Shown here piece after piece: positions 2,981-37,755 of a stretch of DNA of 37,755 nucleotides. The position numbers and the translations under genes are program-made. Position 1 is the stretch's first letter; every line of letters starts with the position of its first letter. The stretch is from the NCBI GenBank assembly GCA_021414115.1, contig JAIOPD010000033.1, positions 1 to 37,755 on the forward strand. The letters run 5' to 3'. Origin of the DNA: Planctomycetia bacterium. Its GTDB lineage: Bacteria; Planctomycetota; Planctomycetia; Pirellulales; UBA1268. The notes under the pieces are model-generated. The model was not told the DNA's origin, did not search any database, and saw nothing but the letters and a program-made list of their open reading frames with translations.

Positions 2981-4480
2981 TCAGGCAGCCCGCCGACGGT
3001 CGAACGGCGCCACGGGAGGATGGGCGAGTTGCAGCCAGCCGTCGACGAGGACCCCCAGGGAGGCCCGGCCGGCACAGGGGCCGGCAGGCCCCGGCTCGCG
3101 AGGCACGTGGCCGAAAACGACGGCGCAGTCGTGCTCGCCAAGCGCTGCAAGGAGCCGGTCGACGCGGGCATAGGCGGTGATGTCGGCCTCCGATGGATCG
3201 TCAGACGCCACCGAGGAGGGGACGACGAGGCAGTCGTCGCACCACCGCTCGAGACGCCGACCGAACCACCGGCCTCCGAGCCGCGCGGCCAGCCGTTCGT
3301 CGGCGAGCACGACCAAACGGCCTCTCGTGAGTCGTCGCAGGCTCGAGAGCGTCGCCGAAACCGCATGCATGGTCGATGGCGCGTCGATGAACACGGGCAT
3401 GTCCTGACCGCGGTCGATCCGCTCCATCCGGCCCGGCACGCTCGTCGTCGCCTCGATGCCGCGGACGGCCCGCTCGAGCGTCACGCCATACCTCGCGGCA
3501 ACAGCGGCAGCCAGGAGCGCATCGCGCACGAACGGCACCGTCGGCGTGTCGATGGTAACCGGCACCATCTGGCCGCCGCATCCCATGAGAAACGTCCTGC
3601 CACACAGGCTGCCTTCCACCGGCCGGGCCCAGACATCGCATTCGGCATTGAGTCCCGCGGTGAGGCACGTGGCCGACTCCGGACCGGCGGCGAGGATGCG
3701 GCTGCGTTGCCGGGGGCTCATGCCGGTCACGAGGCAGCCCCCCTCGGACAGCGTGCCCATGACCCGCGACGTGATCTCGCGATAGGCGCGGTGCGAGCTG
3801 TGTCGGTCGAGGTGGGCGGCAGCGAGATTGGTGACCACGACGGTGTCGCACACCATGCCGGCCGTGGCGTGCGCCGCGAGCATCCGGCTCGAGACTTCGA
3901 CGATCGCGTGCGAGCAGCCTCCGGCTGCGAGCCGGGCCAGCCAGCGGGCGAGCGCCGCCGGCGAACACACATCGTCGGGCACGGCCTCGGTGTCATCGGG
4001 GCCAAGACATCCGAGATCGGAGAGCACGCCGACGCGGTGCCCCCCCTCGGCGAGAGCCGCGGCGGCAAGCCAGGCCGTCGTCGTCTTGCCGCTCGTGCCG
4101 GCGACCGCGATCACCCGCATCTCGCGGGACGGATCGCCGACGAGCGCGTGGCAGAGACGGGCCATCGCCCAGTCGCTGTCGGAAACGAGACACAGCGGCA
4201 CGCCGTCGGTGGAAACGATCCGCTCGGCGATCACGCCCGACGCTCCGCGGGCGATGGCCCGCGACACCGCCTCGTGTCCGTCGCCCCGCTCGGTGAGCCG
4301 TGCCACGAAGACGTCGCCGGTGCGGCACTCGTCCGGATCGTCCTGGCAGCGTCGTACCACGATGTCGTCGCAGGCGATGAACCGGGCTCCGGGGATGACC
4401 TCGGAGAGCCGCACTCCGCGAGCCTCGCCCCGGCTCTCTCCGACCGGACGAACCCGTGAACCCTTCGACGCATCACGCAT
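2981..4480 (-). CDS. MurE-like Mur ligase with degenerate acceptor-binding motifs
   Basis: A 499-residue protein with the three-domain Mur ligase plan. The N-terminal domain is of MurE type (GDVFVA followed by DGHEAV and IARGASGVI). The P-loop GTSGKTT lies at about 128-134, followed by VEVSSRMLAAH, VTNLAAAHLDRH and PGRMERID, all at MurE positions. MurE joins the third amino acid, usually meso-diaminopimelate, to UDP-MurNAc-dipeptide. However, the DYAHTP motif is replaced by DAPSTM, the GGDRD..KRP region is unrecognisable, and the DNPR motif that holds diaminopimelate is absent (SSVASDDPSEADI). The start is supported by AGGAGG five bases upstream. It leads the run to murB and ftsQ. It is either a specialised ligase or a pseudoenzyme, and the functional murE may be elsewhere. 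Confidence 0.75.
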   Translation of the reverse strand: MRDASKGSRVRPVGESRGEARGVRLSEVIPGARFIACDDIVVRRCQDDPDECRTGDVFVARLTERGDGHEAVSRAIARGASGVIAERIVSTDGVPLCLVSDSDWAMARLCHALVGDPSREMRVIAVAGTSGKTTTAWLAAAALAEGGHRVGVLSDLGCLGPDDTEAVPDDVCSPAALARWLARLAAGGCSHAIVEVSSRMLAAHATAGMVCDTVVVTNLAAAHLDRHSSHRAYREITSRVMGTLSEGGCLVTGMSPRQRSRILAAGPESATCLTAGLNAECDVWARPVEGSLCGRTFLMGCGGQMVPVTIDTPTVPFVRDALLAAAVAARYGVTLERAVRGIEATTSVPGRMERIDRGQDMPVFIDAPSTMHAVSATLSSLRRLTRGRLVVLADERLAARLGGRWFGRRLERWCDDCLVVPSSVASDDPSEADITAYARVDRLLAALGEHDCAVVFGHVPREPGPAGPCAGRASLGVLVDGWLQLAHPPVAPFDRRRAA

Positions 4481-4708
4481 GACGGCCTCCTGCCGGCGGG
4501 ACCGGGGCTGCCGAAGCGGCCCACGATCGGTGAAACGAGTCCTTCCTTGGACGTCGCTGGCGGCGGATTGTCACCAGACGGAAAAGTGGGTCAAGGCCGC
4601 CTGTCCGCGAATCACGGCCGACCGGCGCCCCGCCCTCGCAGACAACCCGCCTTGCCACCAGAAGCAGCTCCAGACTACCGTCGAGCCGTCTTCAGGAGAC
4701 GCCAAGAC
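4481..4708. promoter_or_regulatory. Divergent intergenic region
   Basis: 228 bp between the minus-strand Mur ligase and the plus-strand gene at 4709. It must hold promoters for both directions. No clear -35/-10 pair or inverted repeat stands out by eye. Confidence 0.3.
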
Positions 4709-5566
4709 GTGAACGACCCGAGTCTCGATCAACCCGTCGAGCCCGTTCGGCCAGCCGTGCTGTGGGTCGGCGCGTGCGACGATCCAGAACTGGCCTTGGC
4801 GCGGACGTGGGCCGACGAGTTGGCGGATGTCTTCGAGGCGCCGACGCCGGATGCAGCCGTCGCGTCGCCGCCCGAGGCGTTCCTGGAGCGCTCGCCGGCC
4901 GCCGTCGTGCTCGCATCGCCGACTCCGGCCCGCTGGTCCCTCGTTGACTGCATCACGCTGTCACGCCGCTGGCCGCTGGCCCCCCTGGTATCGGTCGCAG
5001 GCAGCCTGGTCGAAGGGCGGCGGCGGAGTGGGCCGGCCCTGCCCGGCGTGGAAGAGGTCGCCTGGAACGAACTCCCCGGGCGGATGGCGTGGTGGATGCA
5101 CGATTGCGCTCGAGGACGCCCGGGGTCTCTGGGAATGCCTACCACGTCGCGCCGCGAGGAGCGGTTGCTCGAGGCCGCCGGACGGGTGGCCGACTTCGCC
5201 ACCCAACCGGGACGACGGGTGTCGGTGGCGGCATCGCGGGCGAGCGACGTCGAGGGCCTGGCCGATGTCCTGACCGCAGCCGGACGGCCGCCGCTGCGGC
5301 GCACCTGCGGAAGGCCAGCGCTCGACGAACCGGCCGACATCCTGGTCTGGGACGTCTCGGAGGTTTCCACCGTCGACCTGACGTGGCTGGCCATGCTCAC
5401 CGCAAACCGCCCAAGGCTCGCCGTCGTGCTGCTCGACTCCTTCCCGAGAAGCGATTCGACACTGGCCGTTCTCCGCGCCGGCGGTCGGGCGGTCCTCTCC
5501 CGGCCGATGTCGCTGGAAACCCTGGCGGGGATGCTCTTGCGGCTGGAAACGTTGCTGCCAGCATGA
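4709..5566 (+). CDS. Hypothetical protein with two degenerate receiver-like domains
   Basis: 285 residues, cytosolic, with no membrane segment. The C-terminal half reads like the second half of a response-regulator receiver: ADILVWDVSEVST (strand with Asp), LAVVLLDSFPRSDS (strand with a Thr/Ser-like end), then a strand ending VLSRPMSLETL, where RP stands in for the usual KP. The N-terminal half (WVGACDDPELALARTWADEL ... AAVVLASPTP ... PLAPLVSVAG) has a similar pattern. No complete DD/D/T/K set is present, so phosphorylation is unlikely. A GTG start at 4709 with GGAG upstream is preferred over an ATG at 4547, which would add a low-complexity leader. The role is unknown. Another reading is a DNA- or nucleotide-associated Rossmann protein. 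Confidence 0.6.
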   Translation: MNDPSLDQPVEPVRPAVLWVGACDDPELALARTWADELADVFEAPTPDAAVASPPEAFLERSPAAVVLASPTPARWSLVDCITLSRRWPLAPLVSVAGSLVEGRRRSGPALPGVEEVAWNELPGRMAWWMHDCARGRPGSLGMPTTSRREERLLEAAGRVADFATQPGRRVSVAASRASDVEGLADVLTAAGRPPLRRTCGRPALDEPADILVWDVSEVSTVDLTWLAMLTANRPRLAVVLLDSFPRSDSTLAVLRAGGRAVLSRPMSLETLAGMLLRLETLLPA

Positions 5567-5611
5567 ACCGCTGGGTTTGACCTGGCCGGCGGGTTTCCCT
5601 ATTTCTCCGGC

Positions 5612-6490
5612 ATGATTCCCGTCCGCATCCTCTGCATTCTGGCCGTGCCCGCCCTGGCCACCGCGATTGCGGGCTGCGCGCATCTTGCCAGCCACCCCGG
5701 CCTCCCCGCCGGCATGGCGGCCACTCTCGTTGCGGTCGGCGGCGACTCCGGCCTCCCGGCTCGCAGCGAAGTCACGGCAGGGCAACTCGTCATCCACGCC
5801 GATTTCCCGATCGCCGGCCAGCACCGGCTGGTCCGCGAACTCGACTCGCTGCGGACCGACGTCAGCCAGGAACTCGCGCTTCCCATCTCCGACGAGCCCG
5901 TGCACCTCTACCTCTTCGAGAGCACGTCCCGCTACGACGCCTTCGTCGCCCGCCAGTATCCGACGTTCCCGGCACGCCGCGCCTTTTTTGTCGAGACCGA
6001 CACCACGCTCTCCGTGTTCGCGGTCTGGCAGGATCGTGTCGCCGAAGACCTGCGTCATGAAACGACCCACGGCTATGTCCACGCCGTCGTGCCCGCCGTG
6101 CCGCTCTGGCTCGACGAGGGGATCGCGGAGTTTTTCGAGACGCCCCGCGGTGAACAAGGCCTCCACCGCGGCCACGTGGCCCATCTTGCCGGCCGACTGC
6201 TCGAGGGCACGTGGCGGCCCGACATGGATCGGCTCGATGCGGTCACGTCACCGGGAGAGATGTCACAAGACCACTACGCCGAAGCCTGGTGCTGGGTCCA
6301 TTGGCTGCTCCGCTCGACCCCGGAGCGCCGCGAGCTGCTGCAAAACTATCTACTCGACGTCCGCCGCGATCCCGACACCCCGCCGCTCTCCGCGCGACTG
6401 CGTCACGAGCTCCGGCCGTCGATCGACGCGGCGGCCGAGGTGAAGGCGCATCTTTCCCGGCTCGCGGCCGCCGCCTCGACCGAACGCTGA
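5612..6490 (+). CDS. Lipoprotein with gluzincin-type metallopeptidase motif (DUF1570-like)
   Basis: 292 residues. The N-terminus is a lipoprotein signal: Arg, a hydrophobic stretch (about 6-20), then AIAGC with Cys21 as the predicted lipidated residue, so the protein is probably anchored in a membrane facing the periplasm. A zinc-peptidase motif HETTH lies at about 150, and 18 residues later LWLDEGIAEFFE supplies the downstream Glu typical of gluzincins (DUF1570 and peptidase MA-like families common in planctomycetes). The substrate is unknown. It follows the receiver-like gene by 45 bp and may be cotranscribed. Its stop is one base from the stop of the convergent GNAT gene. Confidence 0.75.
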   Translation: MIPVRILCILAVPALATAIAGCAHLASHPGLPAGMAATLVAVGGDSGLPARSEVTAGQLVIHADFPIAGQHRLVRELDSLRTDVSQELALPISDEPVHLYLFESTSRYDAFVARQYPTFPARRAFFVETDTTLSVFAVWQDRVAEDLRHETTHGYVHAVVPAVPLWLDEGIAEFFETPRGEQGLHRGHVAHLAGRLLEGTWRPDMDRLDAVTSPGEMSQDHYAEAWCWVHWLLRSTPERRELLQNYLLDVRRDPDTPPLSARLRHELRPSIDAAAEVKAHLSRLAAAASTER

Positions 6491-13937: not shown

Positions 13938-14052
13938 TCGGGAAGCCCCAAGCGCCAGCGCGGGGAAGACGGCCTCCACCCCAACCCGCTCCACGGCACC
14001 CTCACGCACAGCCACCCGTCTACCCGTCGCTCGCGATCCGGGCTTCCCGAGG
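13938..14052 (-). repeat. Interspersed structured repeat, copy B (one hairpin module, inverted orientation)
   Basis: The reverse complement of this 115-bp block aligns end to end with module D1 (24348-24462): both run CTCGGGAAGCCCGGA..., through a GC-rich middle containing GGGTGGCTG/GGGCGGCTG and GGGGTGGAGG, to CTTGGGGCTTCCCGA / CTTGGGGCTGCCCGA. The two ends are imperfect inverted repeats of each other (about 30 bp), so the block can fold into a long hairpin. It occupies most of the otherwise gene-free 13774-14104 gap. Confidence 0.7.
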
Positions 14053-15855: not shown

Positions 15856-15915
<60 letters not shown>

Positions 15916-15929
<14 letters not shown>

Positions 15930-15960
15930 CTTTACGCCCGCCGGGCCATCCATGGCCCCG
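15916..15960 (+). repeat. attL-like direct repeat at tRNA-fMet 3' end
   Basis: 45 bp that include the last 14 bases of the tRNA gene and the start of its terminator hairpin. They recur at 16807-16851 with a single mismatch (C at 15924, T at 16815). Duplicated tRNA 3' ends are the usual footprint of tyrosine-recombinase integration, with this intact copy reconstituting the tRNA. Confidence 0.6.
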
Positions 15961-15972
15961 GCGGGCATTTTC
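15935..15972 (+). terminator. Intrinsic terminator after tRNA-fMet
   Basis: GCCCGCCGGG pairs with CCCCGGCGGGC around a CCATCCATGG core, followed by ATTTTC. The stem is strong and the U-run short. It lies five bases after the tRNA gene. Confidence 0.65.
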
Positions 15973-16010: not shown

Positions 16011-16048
16011 AGCCGGGCCATCCATGGCCCCTGCCGGCTGTTTTTTTG
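16011..16048 (+). terminator. Second terminator-like hairpin, related to the first
   Basis: AGCCGGGCCATCCATGGCCC continues to CTGCCGGCT, forming a stem with the same CCATCCATGG core as the hairpin after the tRNA. It is followed by seven T residues, a textbook intrinsic terminator on the plus strand. It appears to be a diverged copy of the tRNA terminator. Confidence 0.6.
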
Positions 16049-16545: not shown

Positions 16546-16800
16546 GGGTTGCCGACTTTTGCCGTGATGCCTGCGCAGGCGATTTATAGTCGCTCTACCA
16601 GTTGGTAGCGCTACCATCGTGGACGCGGTAGCGGCCGTGAGCCTTGCCAGCACAGCCACCCGCTCGTCCTCCGAGATCGCCATGCCCGCTATGAGGGCCA
16701 CCGCCTGTGCAAGCAGCTTGATCCGATCGGGTGAAATTGCGTCGCATTCTGCGTCGCAGACAGACTCGACCCCCTGCTTTCCCGAGTGAAACCACGTTTG
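16546..16800 (-). other. Possible coding remnant upstream of the antitoxin
   Basis: An open minus-strand frame, continuous with the antitoxin frame, reads CDAECDAISPDRIKLLAQAV, then ALIAGMAISEDERVAVLARL. This looks like genuine helical protein, perhaps the C-terminal tail of a larger protein such as a recombinase. No start or domain is present, and the frame runs out of the attR-like repeat. The identity is not established. Confidence 0.3.
16583..16615 (-). promoter_or_regulatory. Candidate autoregulatory operator and -10 box of the TA locus
   Basis: Three alternating half-sites overlap: CTACCAGTTGGTAG (16595-16608) and GGTAGCGCTACC (16604-16615) are each perfect palindromes sharing a GGTAG. 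On the minus strand TATAAA (16583-16588) follows, about 38 bp before the antitoxin start. Such arrays are usual for antitoxin-DNA autoregulation. No good -35 is seen. Confidence 0.5.
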
Positions 16801-16806
16801 TTCGGT

Positions 16807-16851
16807 TCCTGTCCTCGCCACTTTACGCCCGCCGGGCCATCCATGGCCCCG
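16807..16851 (+). repeat. attR-like direct repeat of tRNA-fMet 3' end and terminator
   Basis: 44 of 45 bases match 15916-15960, including the tRNA tail CGCCACTTTACGCCCGCCGG and the CCATCCATGG hairpin core. The rest of the tRNA is absent here. The distance between the copies (891 bp) defines a small putative element holding the TA remnant. Confidence 0.6.
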
Positions 16852-16960
16852 GGCATCGCCGGTCTCGAGGCCGAGAGCTGGGTGCTGGGGCGAGGTATGG
16901 AAGTGGCTAAATAGGCTGAGCCGTTTCGCCCGCCATTCAAAATGCCGCGGCTCTGCCTCG

Positions 16961-21111: not shown

Positions 21112-21334
21112 GGGGCTACCCGTGCCCCGGGAGCCGGCGTTGGCGGCCAGCGGAGACAGGATGTCGAAGCGCAGCCGGCATCGAATGAGTGGAGGGCAGG
21201 ATGCCCGCAGCGAACGTCCGGCGGCGGGGTATGGTAGCCCCGAACACACGCGAGCAGACGTTCACCGCCAGCAACGCAGGATCACCAACACACCGGGCCC
21301 GGGCGCGCGAGGATCAAGTGGGAGCCGTATCAGG
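21112..21334 (+). repeat. Interspersed structured repeat, copy C
   Basis: The left arm GGGGCTACC (21112-21120) pairs with GGTAGCCCC (21233-21241); inside, GAGCCGG/CCGGC and CCCC/GGGG continue the stem. In copy D the same position is G-C (GGGCTGCC/GGCAGCCC), so the stem changed on both sides. The interior ATGTCGAAGCGCAGCCGGC and GCCCGCAGCGAACGTCCGGC match copies A and D. The tail AAGTGGGAGCCGTATCAGG ends the unit. The CCCCGCGCTCGCGC module of A and D is missing. Confidence 0.7.
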
Positions 21335-21889: not shown

Positions 21890-22362
21890 GGTGGCCTTCC
21901 GCGATCTCCCTTTCGCCGGGTGACCCGTCATGCCCTTCGGGCTGATCACTCGCGACGTCAGATCGCGAGGAATTCATGGCACTTCATGAACCTCCTGGCT
22001 CATGGACCGGACCGTCTGCAGGATCTCCTCGGTGCGTTCGGAGTTGGGCGAGGCGGACTGGCGGGTGGGCGTCACTACTCCACCAGCCGCAGCTCACTGG
22101 CGACGACCCGCACGACAGGCGTCCGGGTAGGAGCGCGATGGCATGGGGCGCCGCGTCGCCGTTTTCGACCGCCGCCAACACGGCTCACATGAAAGCCGTA
22201 TCAGGGCACGTAGGGGAACGACTTCCAGTTCGAAAAGGCAGGCTCACCTTCCAACGAGAGGCGTGCGCACCTATAAGCCTCCTTCACTGCCGGCCGCGGG
22301 CACCAACCCTCTGGGCCGTCAGGAACGACCGAACCACACGTGTCGACCAAGGAAGCCATCCG
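21890..22362. other. Gene-free region with a partial repeat copy (E)
   Basis: No gene is supported. At 22182-22205, CGGCTCACATGAAAGCCGTATCAGG is a diverged copy of the repeat-family tail hairpin (GGCTC...GAGCCGTATCAGG at 402-425, 21311-21334 and 24802-24825), with CGGCT/AGCCG stem pairing retained. The last bases hold the asnB ribosome site. Confidence 0.5.
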
Positions 22363-24222
22363 ATGTGCGGGATTGTGGGAGTCTGGCGGCAACGGGACGG
22401 AGAGCGTGCCGATCCTGCCCTCGTCGATCGCATGTTGGCGACCATTCTGCATCGTGGGCCGGATGGCGGAGGCGTCTGGTCGGAAGGTCGTGTCGCACTC
22501 GGGCATCGTCGGCTTTCGATCATCGACCTTTCTGCGGCCGGTCACCAACCGATGCTGAGCTCAGACCGCCACGGAGTGCTCACCTACAACGGCGAGATCT
22601 ACAACTATCCAGAACTCCGCCTACAGCTGGAAAAAGAGGGTGTTGCCTTCGTCGGCACGTCCGACACCGAAGTTCTCCTCGCGGCGCTTCACTCCTGGGG
22701 ACCGGAGCGAACCATACCCCTGCTCAACGGGATGTTCGCTTTCGCCTACCTCGACCTCCGCTGCGGAGCGTTGTGGCTGGCCCGCGACCGTCTTGGCATC
22801 AAGCCGCTCTACGTGGCGGACACCGGCGAGGATCTGCTCTTCGCCTCCGAGGTCAAGGCCATCCTCGCCCATCCCCGCATGGTGAAGAGGGTCGATGAGG
22901 CGGCCCTGAGCCGGGCATTTCTCGTCACGCGACGTTCCCACGACACCCTCTTCGCCGGCATCACCGGCATGCCGTCCGGCTGTTGGTGGAAGGTGACTTG
23001 CGACGGCATCACGAAGCATCGTTACTTCGAAGTCGAGACCGCGATCGATCGTGATCGTCTGACGCGGAATCACCGCTCGATCGACCTGGGCTCGGTCACC
23101 GAGGCGCTGCAACGCAACCTCCGGGAGAGCGTCCGCATCCATCTCGCGAGCGATGCCCCAATCGCCGCGATGTGCAGCGGCGGAGTCGACTCGAGCCTCA
23201 TCGCGGCCTACGCCGGCGACGACAGGCCGGACATGGTCGGTTACGTCGCCGACGCCCCCGTCGGCAGCGGCGAGGCAGCCCAGGCGCTGCGGGTCGGCCG
23301 CCATATCAACGTCCCGATCCGCGAGGTAGCGGTGCCTCGCGAGGACTACCTGCGGCTCTGGCCGGTTTGCGTTCGGCATCTCGACAGCCCTGCCCACCAT
23401 CGCAGCGAGCCCGCCCTGCTCGCCGTCGCGCTCGCCTGCCGAGCCGACGGAATCAAGGTGCTCCTCACCGGAGAGGGTGCCGACGAGCTCTTCGGCGGCT
23501 ATCCGTGGCACGCCGCTGCTCACCGCTCCTGGCGCGATTGGCCATGGCTGTCGGCAGTCGTGCCGCGGTCTCTCGGGGGACGTGCGTCATCCCGCCATCG
23601 CGCCTTTCCTCTGCAGCCGCCCGGCATGGGCGGTTCGCTCCACAGGTTGAGATCCCGTCTGGCTCTCGCCGTCGATGCCGAACGTGAGCTGCTCTCCCGC
23701 AGGCTCTTCGAAAGCCTCGCGGGAATCGATCGGCTTCCCGACCGTGCCCTGGTCGTTTCCGGCCTGGCCGACCTCGTCGACCACCTGTCCTGGGTTCTCC
23801 ACCGGCACGATCACATCAGCATGGCCGCCTCGGTCGAGATGCGGGTGCCGTTTCTCGAAAACCACCTGATCGACTTCGGCATGCATCTTCCCGGCCCGGT
23901 CAAGCTCCGCCGCGGCCAGGGAAAGTGGGCGTTGAAAACCGTCGCCCTCGATCGCCTCCCGCGTGACGTCGTCCATGCCCGCAAGAAGGGTTTTCCGATC
24001 CCGCACGCCTATACGGACGGCACCGAACGCATCCTGCTGAACGGACTCCTGGCCGATCAACTGCAGTGGTCAACGGCGACGACGCGGCTCCTCGTCGATG
24101 ACATGCGGCACGACTTGGATCTCCGTTTTCTCATGGTCGGCATGGAAATCTGGCTGCAACTGCTCTTCGGCAACGAGACGACTGATGCCGTCGGTGAGAA
24201 ACTCGTGGCCCACGCCAGGTAA
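22363..24222 (+). CDS. asnB: Asparagine synthase (glutamine-hydrolysing)
   Basis: 619 residues. The enzyme makes asparagine from aspartate, ATP and glutamine. The N-terminal Ntn glutaminase domain begins MCGIVGVW, with Cys2 as nucleophile after Met removal, followed by LGHRRLSIIDLSAAGHQPM and YNGEIYNYPELR. The synthetase domain has the PP-loop CSGGVDSSLIAAY (about 271-283) and LTGEGADELFGGYPWH (about 368-383). The start at 22363 is fixed by the need for Cys2 and by AAGGAAG upstream. It is flanked on both sides by structured repeats and has no same-strand partner. Stand-alone AsnB paralogues also occur in exopolysaccharide loci, but no such genes are near. Confidence 0.93.
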   Translation: MCGIVGVWRQRDGERADPALVDRMLATILHRGPDGGGVWSEGRVALGHRRLSIIDLSAAGHQPMLSSDRHGVLTYNGEIYNYPELRLQLEKEGVAFVGTSDTEVLLAALHSWGPERTIPLLNGMFAFAYLDLRCGALWLARDRLGIKPLYVADTGEDLLFASEVKAILAHPRMVKRVDEAALSRAFLVTRRSHDTLFAGITGMPSGCWWKVTCDGITKHRYFEVETAIDRDRLTRNHRSIDLGSVTEALQRNLRESVRIHLASDAPIAAMCSGGVDSSLIAAYAGDDRPDMVGYVADAPVGSGEAAQALRVGRHINVPIREVAVPREDYLRLWPVCVRHLDSPAHHRSEPALLAVALACRADGIKVLLTGEGADELFGGYPWHAAAHRSWRDWPWLSAVVPRSLGGRASSRHRAFPLQPPGMGGSLHRLRSRLALAVDAERELLSRRLFESLAGIDRLPDRALVVSGLADLVDHLSWVLHRHDHISMAASVEMRVPFLENHLIDFGMHLPGPVKLRRGQGKWALKTVALDRLPRDVVHARKKGFPIPHAYTDGTERILLNGLLADQLQWSTATTRLLVDDMRHDLDLRFLMVGMEIWLQLLFGNETTDAVGEKLVAHAR

Positions 24223-24347
24223 TAGGGCGTCACACGTGAGCCTCGCGCGTACCCCATCGTGTTGCATGGATTGAACGGACTTCTGCCCGACGGAGCCGGC
24301 GGTGGCTCCTCTTCGCCTCTTGAGCTGTTTCGCGGTAGGCCATCAGG

Positions 24348-24462
24348 CTCGGGAAGCCCGGAGCGCGAGCGGTGGGTATCCGGGCGGCTGAGCGTGCGGG
24401 TACCGAGGCACAAGACGGGGTGGAGGGCGTATTCCCCGCGCTCGCGCTTGGGGCTGCCCGAT
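24348..24462 (+). repeat. Interspersed structured repeat, module D1
   Basis: 115 bp. The left end CTCGGGAAGCCCGGAGCGCG and right end CGCGCTTGGGGCTGCCCGA are imperfect inverted repeats over about 30 bp. Homologous in full to copy B (13938-14052, opposite orientation). Confidence 0.7.
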
Positions 24463-24526
24463 CGGAGGCAGCGCCGAGGGTCACTCCAGCACCGTCTCGA
24501 GGCGGTCCGTATACTCCGCGCGCGTG

Positions 24527-24825
24527 TGGGCTGCCCGTGCCCCGAGAGCCGGGCTCGGCGGCCAGCGCAGCCCGGATGGCGAAGCGCAGCCGGCGTGCAG
24601 AGAGCGGAGGGCATTGATGCCCGGAGCGAGCGTCCGGCTCTCGGGGCACGGGCAGCCCCGCCCCTCGGGAAGCCAATCCGGCGCCACCAAGAGGCAACCC
24701 GTATACCCCGCGCTCGCGCTTGGGGCTTCCCGATCGGAGGCAGCGCCGAGGGTCAATCCGGCGTCACCAAGAGGCAACCCGTATTCCCCGCGGTCGCGCG
24801 AGGCTTCAGTGGGAGCCGTATAGGG
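24527..24825 (+). repeat. Interspersed structured repeat, copy D (most complete)
   Basis: A perfect 25-bp inverted repeat opens the copy: left arm 24528-24552 (starting GGGCTGCCCGTGCCCC), right arm 24634-24658, enclosing about 80 bp of structured interior. Two AGGCAACCCGTAT(A/T)CCCC units follow (near 24692 and 24772), each leading into CGCG(C/G)TCGCGC, then the tail hairpin GGCTTCAGTGGGAGCC at 24802. Copy A shows the same order. No open frame is conserved between copies. Confidence 0.75.
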
Positions 24826-25018
24826 GTTGCGACGCAGAGACACCGCTCTGACGGGGGCGGGGATTTCCGCGGAGCAGCCCCATCCCGCACGCGTCCAGGA
24901 AAATTTTTCCGTGCGGTGCGTGACACGCCAGGTCGCTACGGCAACTCATCTCTCGACAGCCGGGCCCGGCGGAAGGCTCGGCACGCGAGGATCATCTTCA
25001 CAGGAAAGACAGACAACC

Positions 25019-36557: not shown

Positions 36558-37755
36558 CCACGCGGATCACGATGAGCGATTTGGCCATTGCCTCCCTCGG
36601 CCCCTGCCGGATCGACTCGCCACTCAGACCGCTGATTGAAGCCCGGAAGACCAACGTCCACTACGTCGAGGAGGAAGATCGCGTGCTCTTCCCCGACACG
36701 GCGAGCCTCGTGGCCGCCGCCGGGGTGAAGGCGGAATCACTGCCTGGCTTCGAGCCCGCCGGGCCGCGCACGAGCATCTTCTTCGACCCGCGAAAAATGC
36801 GGGCGGGGATCGTGACCTGCGGCGGCCTCTGCCCGGGAATCAACAATGTCATCCGCGGCCTCGTGATGGAACTGACGTTCCATTACGGCGTGCACCGAAT
36901 CCACGGCTTCAAGAACGGCTACCAGGGCTTCATCGCGCGGCATGGCCACAATGTGGTCGATCTCACGCCCGAACTCGTCAGCAACATCGACGAGGACGGC
37001 GGCACGATCCTCGGCACGTCACGAGGCGGCCAGGATGCGCAGGAGGTTGTCGATTGTCTCGAACGCATGAACATCTCGGCGCTGTTCGTGATCGGCGGCG
37101 ATGGGACGCTCCGTGGCGCGATGCAGATCGCGACGGTCGCTGCTGAGCGTGGCCTGCGGCTCGCCGTAGTCGGCATCCCGAAGACGATCGACAACGACAT
37201 CCCCTACATCGACCAGAGCTTCGGATTTCAGACCGCCTTCGCCGAGGCGACGAAGTCGATCCGCTCGGCCCACGTCGAGGCGAAGGCCTCGCCCAACGGC
37301 GTCGGCCTCGTGAAACTGATGGGCCGTCATTCGGGCTTCATCGCCTGCTATGCGTCGCTGGCCGAGCCCGATGCCAACTACGTGCTGATCCCGGAGGTTC
37401 CCTTCTGCCTCGACGGTCCCCACGGGTTCCTCGAGCACCTCCTCGACCGGGTTCGCAGCCGTGGCCATGCGGTGATCGTCGCGGCCGAGGGGGCCGGACA
37501 GGACCTGATGGCGGAGCATTCCACGGGCGTCGATGCCTCGGGCAACCGCAAGCTCAACGACGTTGGGATTTTTCTCCGCAGCAGAATTGCCGACCATTTC
37601 GCGGCGGCGGGCGTAGAACTCAACCTGAAATACATCGACCCGAGCTACGCCATTCGCAGCGTCGAGGCCAATCCATTCGACAGCGTCTACTGCCTCCGCC
37701 TCGCCCAAAACGCCGTGCATGCCGCGATGGCAGGCCGCACTTCGATGGTGGTGGG
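36554..37755 (+). CDS. pfkA: 6-phosphofructokinase (3' end outside window)
   Basis: The first 400 codons of a phosphofructokinase that phosphorylates fructose 6-phosphate in glycolysis. The start overlaps the ppc stop (ATGA). Motifs: VTCGGLCPGINNVIR (nucleotide-binding loop), GTSRGGQD, VIGGDGTLRGA, VVGIPKTIDNDI and LMGRHSGFIA. The donor-determining residues are Gly in GGDG (position 104 of E. coli PfkA) and Lys in PKTIDND (position 124). That pair occurs in the plant- and trypanosome-type ATP-dependent enzymes, while PPi enzymes usually have Asp at 104. ATP is thus more likely. About 70 residues precede the usual fold start, as in that clade. The C-terminus is beyond 37755. Confidence 0.88.
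   Translation, partial: MTTRITMSDLAIASLGPCRIDSPLRPLIEARKTNVHYVEEEDRVLFPDTASLVAAAGVKAESLPGFEPAGPRTSIFFDPRKMRAGIVTCGGLCPGINNVIRGLVMELTFHYGVHRIHGFKNGYQGFIARHGHNVVDLTPELVSNIDEDGGTILGTSRGGQDAQEVVDCLERMNISALFVIGGDGTLRGAMQIATVAAERGLRLAVVGIPKTIDNDIPYIDQSFGFQTAFAEATKSIRSAHVEAKASPNGVGLVKLMGRHSGFIACYASLAEPDANYVLIPEVPFCLDGPHGFLEHLLDRVRSRGHAVIVAAEGAGQDLMAEHSTGVDASGNRKLNDVGIFLRSRIADHFAAAGVELNLKYIDPSYAIRSVEANPFDSVYCLRLAQNAVHAAMAGRTSMVV

Follow-up and report, generated by a model that had tools for sequence, protein, structure and literature searches.

REP-like repeats, the mosaics they form and the structures that accompany class 3 Y1 transposases are known, and the usual account of REP-like repeats is one of short, single hairpins without a known direction. 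According to the excerpts of Bertels and Rainey (2011, PMC3116915) on which we rely, REPINs or BIMEs are doublets of REP sequences that are moved by TnpA-REP. In the excerpted text of a second paper (PMC3733652), the REPs tagged with GTAG or CGTC are single hairpins of 20-40 bp that lie behind genes or between convergent genes, Planctomycetes included, and the CGTC type is presented there as having no dedicated transposase. For class 3 TnpA-Y1, the excerpts of Quentin et al. (2018, PMC6006769) name Planctomycetes as the main hosts, with 11 of 24 proteins, and describe a Y----Q spacing and genes flanked by high-copy atypical hairpins with a CnGA foot; the same text states that IS608-type elements use the lagging-strand template.

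We analysed a stretch of 37,755 nucleotides (the window) from a Planctomycetia bacterium, in which a preliminary description had reported five loci, A to E, as one family of repeats with ordered modules. The repeats are real and the modules do recur between the loci; what had been taken for one family consists of three nested palindromic element types (M0, M1 and M2), which we told apart by reading 23 stretches side by side. Used as a query, the D block gave 136 matches (E <= 0.001) in the host assembly (4.35 Mb in 144 contigs, 95% complete), and the M2 part folded as single-stranded DNA had z-scores of -7.8 in copy D and -3.9 in copy C (200 dinucleotide shuffles each), so the repeats are not due to chance. 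On balance, and by a narrow preference, we read the window as a mosaic of REP/REPIN-like non-autonomous mobile palindromes, mostly inserted behind genes.

The ends of M0 follow the pattern TGATACGG[GC]TCACACGTGAGCCTCGCGC, for which 25 matches were found at up to 3 mismatches and none with the reversed control. Pairs of M0 ends span 174, 245, 231 and 2218 bp, the last being so long because a group II intron lies inside. M1 measures about 114 bp and has the ends TCGGGAAGCCC and GGGCTTCCCGA, each a hairpin around GCGCGAGCG; it is nearly symmetric. M2, of about 131 bp, is composed of a 25-bp inverted repeat with two inner hairpins. No known transposon was found of which the repeats are terminal parts, and an autonomous long M0 element was rejected as a candidate, the only long pair (on contig C22) enclosing the intron and no transposase. 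The intron, at about 1001-2900 of that locus (L235, G000:C22), matches RVT_1, GIIM and RF00029 and adjoins an M1-type hairpin within M0. The repeats may be targets of the intron.

At copy D, an M0 on the + strand (about 24220-24823, some 604 bp) encloses an M1, an M2 and half an M1. Its ends, TAATAGGGCGTCACACGTGAGCCTCGCGCG on the left and GCGCGAGGCTTCAGTGGGAGCCGTATAG on the right, are imperfect inverted repeats of the M0 end consensus. The left end (24220-24249, + strand) was identified by direct reading and was missed by a fuzzy scan allowing up to 6 substitutions; it is thus more diverged than the right end (24796-24823, - strand), the unit earlier given as GGCTC...GAGCCGTATCAGG, which is 5 substitutions away from the M0 pattern. 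The gene just upstream is asparagine synthase-like (Pfam Asn_synthase and GATase domains), and its stop codon TAA (24220-24222) lies in the left end, where the sequence is TAATAGGG (consensus TGATACGG). Within copy D, repeat alignment and a full-copy scan place M1 at 24347-24462 (+ strand) as two inverted hairpin ends, TCGGGAAGCCC... and ...GGGCTGCCCGA, and the half M1 at 24698-24733 (+ strand) is one hairpin end made of CCCCGCGCTCGCGCTTGGGG and CTTCCCGA. The M2 between them (24527-24660, + strand) comprises a 25-bp stem P1, a helix P2 with an apical hairpin and a hairpin P3; its fold was computed, and it scores 127.8 bits with R1, a covariance model of M2 built from 69 copies with 44 pairs. 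The 5' arm (24528-24552) and the 3' arm (24634-24658) of P1, both given on the + strand, form the perfect 25-bp inverted repeat that had been claimed for this copy.

Copy C is a full M2 (21112-21242, + strand, 129.9 bits with R1) near an M0 end (21305-21332, - strand, 1 mismatch to the M0 pattern). The double change reported in its P1 stem was confirmed, with GGGGCTACC.../...GGTAGCCCC in copy C versus GGGCTGCC.../...GGCAGCCC in copy D. Copy A contains an M2 truncated at the contig start, of which the 3' part is left (1-88, + strand, 68.8 bits with R1 at model positions 46-132), a half M1 recognised as a shared module by direct reading (296-330, + strand) and an M0 end with 3 mismatches (396-423, - strand). 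Copy B is a lone M1 (13938-14051, - strand), as judged from the inverted repeat, the alignment and the full-copy scan, and copy E is only a diverged M0 end (22176-22203, - strand, 6 substitutions). The annotated start of the reading frame at 21976-24222 is probably too far upstream; its homologues align only from residue ~129, and a start further downstream would leave the M0 end of copy E outside the gene. Two further observations were made in the window. Another palindrome, GCCGGGCCATCCATGGCCCCGGC, unrelated to M0-M2, occurs at 15945-15965, 16017-16037, 16836-16856 and 36590-36610, and likewise at locus L194. The 3' end of a tRNA-Met with its flank (15909-15961) is duplicated 891 bp downstream at 16800-16852 with 94% identity, which resembles a possible attachment-site duplication.

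Searching the host and its relatives with the repeat modules revealed dispersed copies, and the repeats are not limited to this genome, being present genus-wide and in 11 genera of the family. D-like DNA matches were obtained in all 22 genus members, the host included, weakly in one of three other genera of the family, and in none of 15 genomes from other families. The alignment A1 held 69 of 73 M2 copies, four diverged or interrupted copies being excluded. Of the 150 candidates scored with R1 in the host assembly, 144 matched M2, and all 22 genus genomes contained M2, with 4 to at least 150 matches each, a range in which some of the assemblies are only half complete. In 296 genomes of the order, 59 were positive with R1, all of one family (59 of 66 sampled family genomes, no M2 being listed for 7 members), and M2 was found in none of 230 genomes of the order's other families (13 listed, 217 by listing order) with the stricter filters of this search, by which weak matches can be lost. 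The inner motif AGCGNAGCCAGGATGGCGNAGCG was present in at least 114 stretches of named genomes; among the 80 matches listed, 74 had titles of Planctomycetota (Pirellulales, Planctomycetaceae and bins titled Kuenenia) and 3 had titles of other phyla. One of these three records, titled Candidatus Eisenbacteria (L112), has two inverted M2-like folds of 70.9 and 60.7 bits (4310-4444 and 4542-4678), a second, titled Candidatus Eremiobacterota (L108), has one of 49.1 bits (5540-5672), and the third (L115) has no real M2-like fold (15.5 bits). The folds in the first two records have the same inner motif as M2 and different stems; wrong binning is possible.

The fold of M2 is kept while its sequence changes. 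In the orientation of copy D, the + strand of M2 folds into two inner hairpins enclosed by a stem of about 26 bp. Both hairpins are built alike, from GC through a GNA/GNA internal loop and three variable pairs to a short GA-containing loop. Across the 69 copies, 96.2% of the cells were paired, compared to 34-43% in controls with slid partners, and both-side changes were seen in 26 of the 44 pairs versus 11.2 in shuffles. When 28 predicted pairs were followed on a tree, 125 compensatory double changes on single branches were counted, where 12.9 +/- 3.4 were expected from 60 simulations keeping the changes per column (maximum 21). This analysis and that of all pairs used 186 of 189 copies after filters on length, gaps and identity. 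An unrestricted covariation scan of all column pairs placed two pairs above the E ~0.05 line, so single pairs are mostly not significant alone, though their sum is. The covariation extends to the short inner hairpins (helices 3, 5, 6 and 7), and at the level of the whole fold it is well beyond the controls and exceeds the chance level that would have spoken against the preliminary description.

The mismatches in stem P1 differ between the two strands. Among 189 distinct copies there were 247 G.T versus 47 A.C mismatches, and when the copies were grouped by genome or locus, 83 groups were richer in G.T, 4 were richer in A.C and 22 were equal. Tree events starting from Watson-Crick pairs led to G.T 125 times and to A.C 38 times (p 5e-12). 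A corresponding bias was not seen at unpaired sites, where C>T occurred 87 times among 3508 C cells and G>A 127 times among 6023 G cells. A G.T mismatch becomes A.C when read from the opposite strand, so selection acts on the strand in D orientation. With DNA energies, computed for 187 of the 189 copies, the + strand was predicted to be more stable than the - strand in 182, by a mean of only about 5 kcal/mol of 47, and RNA energies gave the same preference in 178 of the 187. The strand-specific wobble pairs do not tell RNA from single-stranded DNA.

M2 is found mostly outside genes and most often between convergent ones. A home-made gene caller placed 121 of the 189 copies between two genes, leaving aside 49 at the edges of loci and 19 within predicted genes; of the 121, 73 were between convergent genes, 23 and 22 between tandem genes in the two orientations and 3 between divergent genes. 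Counting every gap of at least 150 bp in the same loci, also those that hold an M2, gave 105 convergent, 157 tandem and 52 divergent ones (p 5e-7 and 2e-5 for the placement of M2 against this background), and M2 thus shuns promoters, prefers gene ends and is indifferent to the direction of its neighbours. M1 preceded M2 in inverted orientation at 46 of 185 motif hits (redundant loci); its orientation was untied to that of M2, with 22 opposite and 16 same. Inverted pairs of M2 standing 26-45 bp apart were seen on contigs C124, C82, C114 and C100. Such M1-M2 composites and inverted M2 pairs are habits of REP-type mosaics.

The M2 of one locus (L089) is absent at the same place in 8 relatives identified by flank matches, 6 of which were aligned, and at another place three species share an M2 in the same orientation (L020, L069 and L168). 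Three homologues of the gene upstream of copy D (L073, L074 and L093) match up to 24223 and are wholly different from there on; the sequence downstream of them is unrelated, and therefore no insertion junction can be read at copy D. The preliminary description, which matched the repeats to no described family, had left two possibilities: a palindromic element that is non-autonomous, or a structured RNA whose fold is under selection. Both halves of this proposal hold as far as tested, on the basis of the dispersal in 11 genera, the absence at the same place in relatives and the covariation. Of the two, we favour mobile DNA as the more probable.

If M2 were a structured RNA, it would be a small RNA or an element of mRNA 3' ends made from the + strand and spread by an unknown route. 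The strong covariation, the tolerance of G.U on one strand, the preference of the RNA energies for the + strand in 178 of 187 copies and the location at gene ends all agree with this, and we consider it a possible, yet distinctly less probable, explanation. Such an RNA fits poorly with the lack of orientation bias to the neighbouring genes (23 vs 22 tandem), and a copy number that reaches at least 150 in one genome also speaks against it. At gathering scores, Rfam 15 matched nothing in the window except a tRNA, and at E <= 5 it matched nothing in 24300-24850, which likewise counts against an RNA.

Our preferred reading, for which we see slightly better than even chances, is that M2 belongs to REP/REPIN-like non-autonomous mobile DNA that spread by a replication-linked single-strand route, probably via Y1 (HuH) transposases. 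M2 would pass through single-stranded DNA at replication, and a Y1 (HuH) transposase of the TnpA-REP type would recognise the element through its hairpins. This enzyme would most likely belong to class 3, a divergent group of Y1 proteins that is known to occur in Planctomycetes, and a host without a Y1 gene would retain old copies.

Y1 genes above the Pfam cut-off were present in 9 of 22 genus genomes, and three class 3-like Y1 genes sit between hairpins in the host genus. Two of them (L254 and L256) have M1-like hairpins on both sides (2 of 10 Y1 loci), and the third (L253, G015:C177) lies between AAGCCCCCGGCGGGAGCCGGGGGACACC hairpins, again on both sides; the flanks were read by eye at 4 of the 10 loci. 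The three proteins are related, with 49% identity between L253 and L254, and show, as read by eye, the Y----Q spacing as YVRECQ (L254), YVVECQ (L256) and YVAELQ (L253). A Y1 gene at another locus (L255, G010:C105) carries CCGTAGGCCTGTTGCTCCGCAACGGGC repeats on its flanks, which are another hairpin family. In the host assembly there was no match to Y1_Tnp (PF01797), and no canonical RAYT was found in the host. With 24.5 and 22.1 bits, the class 3-like genes come close to the Pfam cut-off, L256 falling just below it (22.1 vs 23), so divergent class 3 Y1 genes can be missed, in the host as well. An M2 match was present at 0 of the 10 Y1 loci fetched, and the copy number of M2 does not track the presence of Y1, three genomes without a Y1 match having 144 (G000), 128 (G012) and 139 (G006) copies. 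There is thus a fair case for the Y1 link of M1, whereas for M2 the link is an extension.

The direction of M2 follows the replication skew in the two genomes measured, the host and G011. Adjacent M2 copies more than 5 kb apart had the same direction in 33 of 41 cases in the host (p 2.5e-4), 34 of 48 in G016 (p 0.003) and 30 of 36 in G011 (p 8e-5), or 97 of 125 when pooled (p 4e-10); copies less than 5 kb (or 1 kb) from the previous copy were dropped from these counts. The polarity of M1 is uninformative, as M1 is nearly symmetric and many of its copies were found on both strands. The skew was determined on 20 kb stretches that were hand-picked on M2-bearing contigs, several on one contig in some cases (C65 and C78 in the host; C14, C11, C6 and C1 in G011), and oriented by the M2 majority of the contig or by the copies within the stretch. 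On the M2 + strand, the GC skew was negative in 19 of 21 host stretches and 17 of 20 in G011, and the AT skew was positive in 19 of 21 and 15 of 20. The effect persists once the gene strand is allowed for (t = -6.2 and 5.0); neither the skew of host intergenic sequence alone (14 of 21 negative, p 0.19) nor the host third-position skew alone (p 0.59) was significant. Co-orientation with genes was rejected as the source of the polarity, the gene strand bias being opposite in 21 of 41 stretches.

The elongation-factor genes gave a mixed picture as direct calibrators of M2 direction and were set aside for that use. On the sense strand of the EF-Tu and EF-G regions, G exceeded C in 5 of 5 and the AT skew was mixed, so the M2 + strand is probably lagging-strand sequence; that is, it would probably stand on the leading-strand template, if G-rich marks the leading strand here. 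This appears to conflict with the IS608 model, which predicts the lagging-strand template. The conflict could be explained by survival of the better-folding strand, by a misread sign of the skew or by the fold acting as RNA. It is for this reason that our confidence in a Y1-linked mobile DNA stays only slightly above even, and that an RNA and a polar signal remain live rivals.

M2 could also be a new kind of element, a tentative idea to which we give about the same modest weight as to the RNA. It would then be a strand-specific unit of DNA (or RNA) with several helices and about 131 nt, its orientation would be fixed by replication, and it would be retained for its fold, whether the host uses it as a polar signal or a new enzyme moves it as mobile DNA. 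In the sampled order it would be restricted to one family, with two distant look-alikes in other phyla.

We regard it as unlikely that M2 is a polar chromosome signal, a binding site whose orientation along each replication arm the host would use in the manner of short polar motifs, with direction and fold under host selection. The polarity in three genomes and its tie to the skew, the retention across the family and the same-place copies in three species (L020, L069 and L168) would be expected of such a signal, whereas a copy number ranging from 4 to at least 150 among species of one genus would not. Long palindromes are also an unusual form for a polar chromosome signal.

The orientation might instead reflect survival and not insertion, if strong hairpins on the lagging-strand template get lost during replication and the + strand, which folds better, is therefore kept away from that template. 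This would remove the conflict with the strand of IS608 and agrees with the better folding of the + strand in 182 of 187 copies, its position on the C-rich strand and the positive GC skew of the EF-Tu/EF-G sense strand in 5 of 5 regions. A mean difference of only about 5 kcal/mol of 47 is small for such an effect, and the palindromic M1, although nearly symmetric, is untied to M2 orientation (22 opposite, 16 same); we consider it improbable. It is highly improbable that the paired changes are copying errors in which template switching makes one arm of the palindrome copy the other, since this could give perfect arms and double changes without function, but leaves Watson-Crick pairs and cannot yield the excess of G.T over A.C (125 vs 38), and the covariation is also found in the short inner hairpins.

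With mobile DNA moved through a single strand as the preferred reading, M2 provides a repeat family that exceeds a hundred copies per genome in several species, in which compensatory mutation reveals the fold and wobble pairs show the folding strand. It can therefore be tested from sequence alone whether REP-like repeats act as DNA or RNA, and whether replication sets where and how they insert or survive. Additionally, the poorly studied class 3 Y1 proteins of Planctomycetes are tied to concrete repeat families.

Compared with REPINs and BIMEs as portrayed in the excerpts of Bertels and Rainey (2011, PMC3116915), the repeats are similarly extragenic, abundant and palindromic, form mosaics and inverted pairs, and M1 corresponds to their doublets as a pair of inverted hairpin ends. 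They differ in that the GTAG/GTGG foot is missing, that the inner hairpins of M2 covary and that its orientation follows the replication skew; GT[AG]G was absent from the ends read, which are TGATACGG for M0, TCGGGAAG for M1 and GGGGCTG/CAGCCCCG for M2. The GTAG/CGTC-tagged REPs, as far as the excerpts of PMC3733652 describe them, are likewise palindromes behind and between convergent genes, whereas M2 is a three-helix unit of 131 nt. In the open-access literature searched, no paper described the M2 repeat or a replication polarity of REP-like repeats, and a multi-helix unit of 131 nt with measured covariation, strand-specific wobble and replication polarity had not been described there. In relation to the class 3 structures in the excerpts of PMC6006769, M2 is far longer and multi-branched, and Y1 genes were found neither next to M2 nor in the host assembly; M1 and M2 fit the CnGA foot only loosely, and the M0 end CTGATAC has C-T-G-A ahead of its hairpin, which may correspond to this foot. 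With respect to IS608 in the same excerpts, M2 is without a transposase gene, and the strand on the presumed lagging-strand template is opposite to that expected. M2 nevertheless resembles the IS200/IS605 elements of that text in that single-strand, replication-coupled movement would give both an orientation bias and hairpins formed on a single strand.
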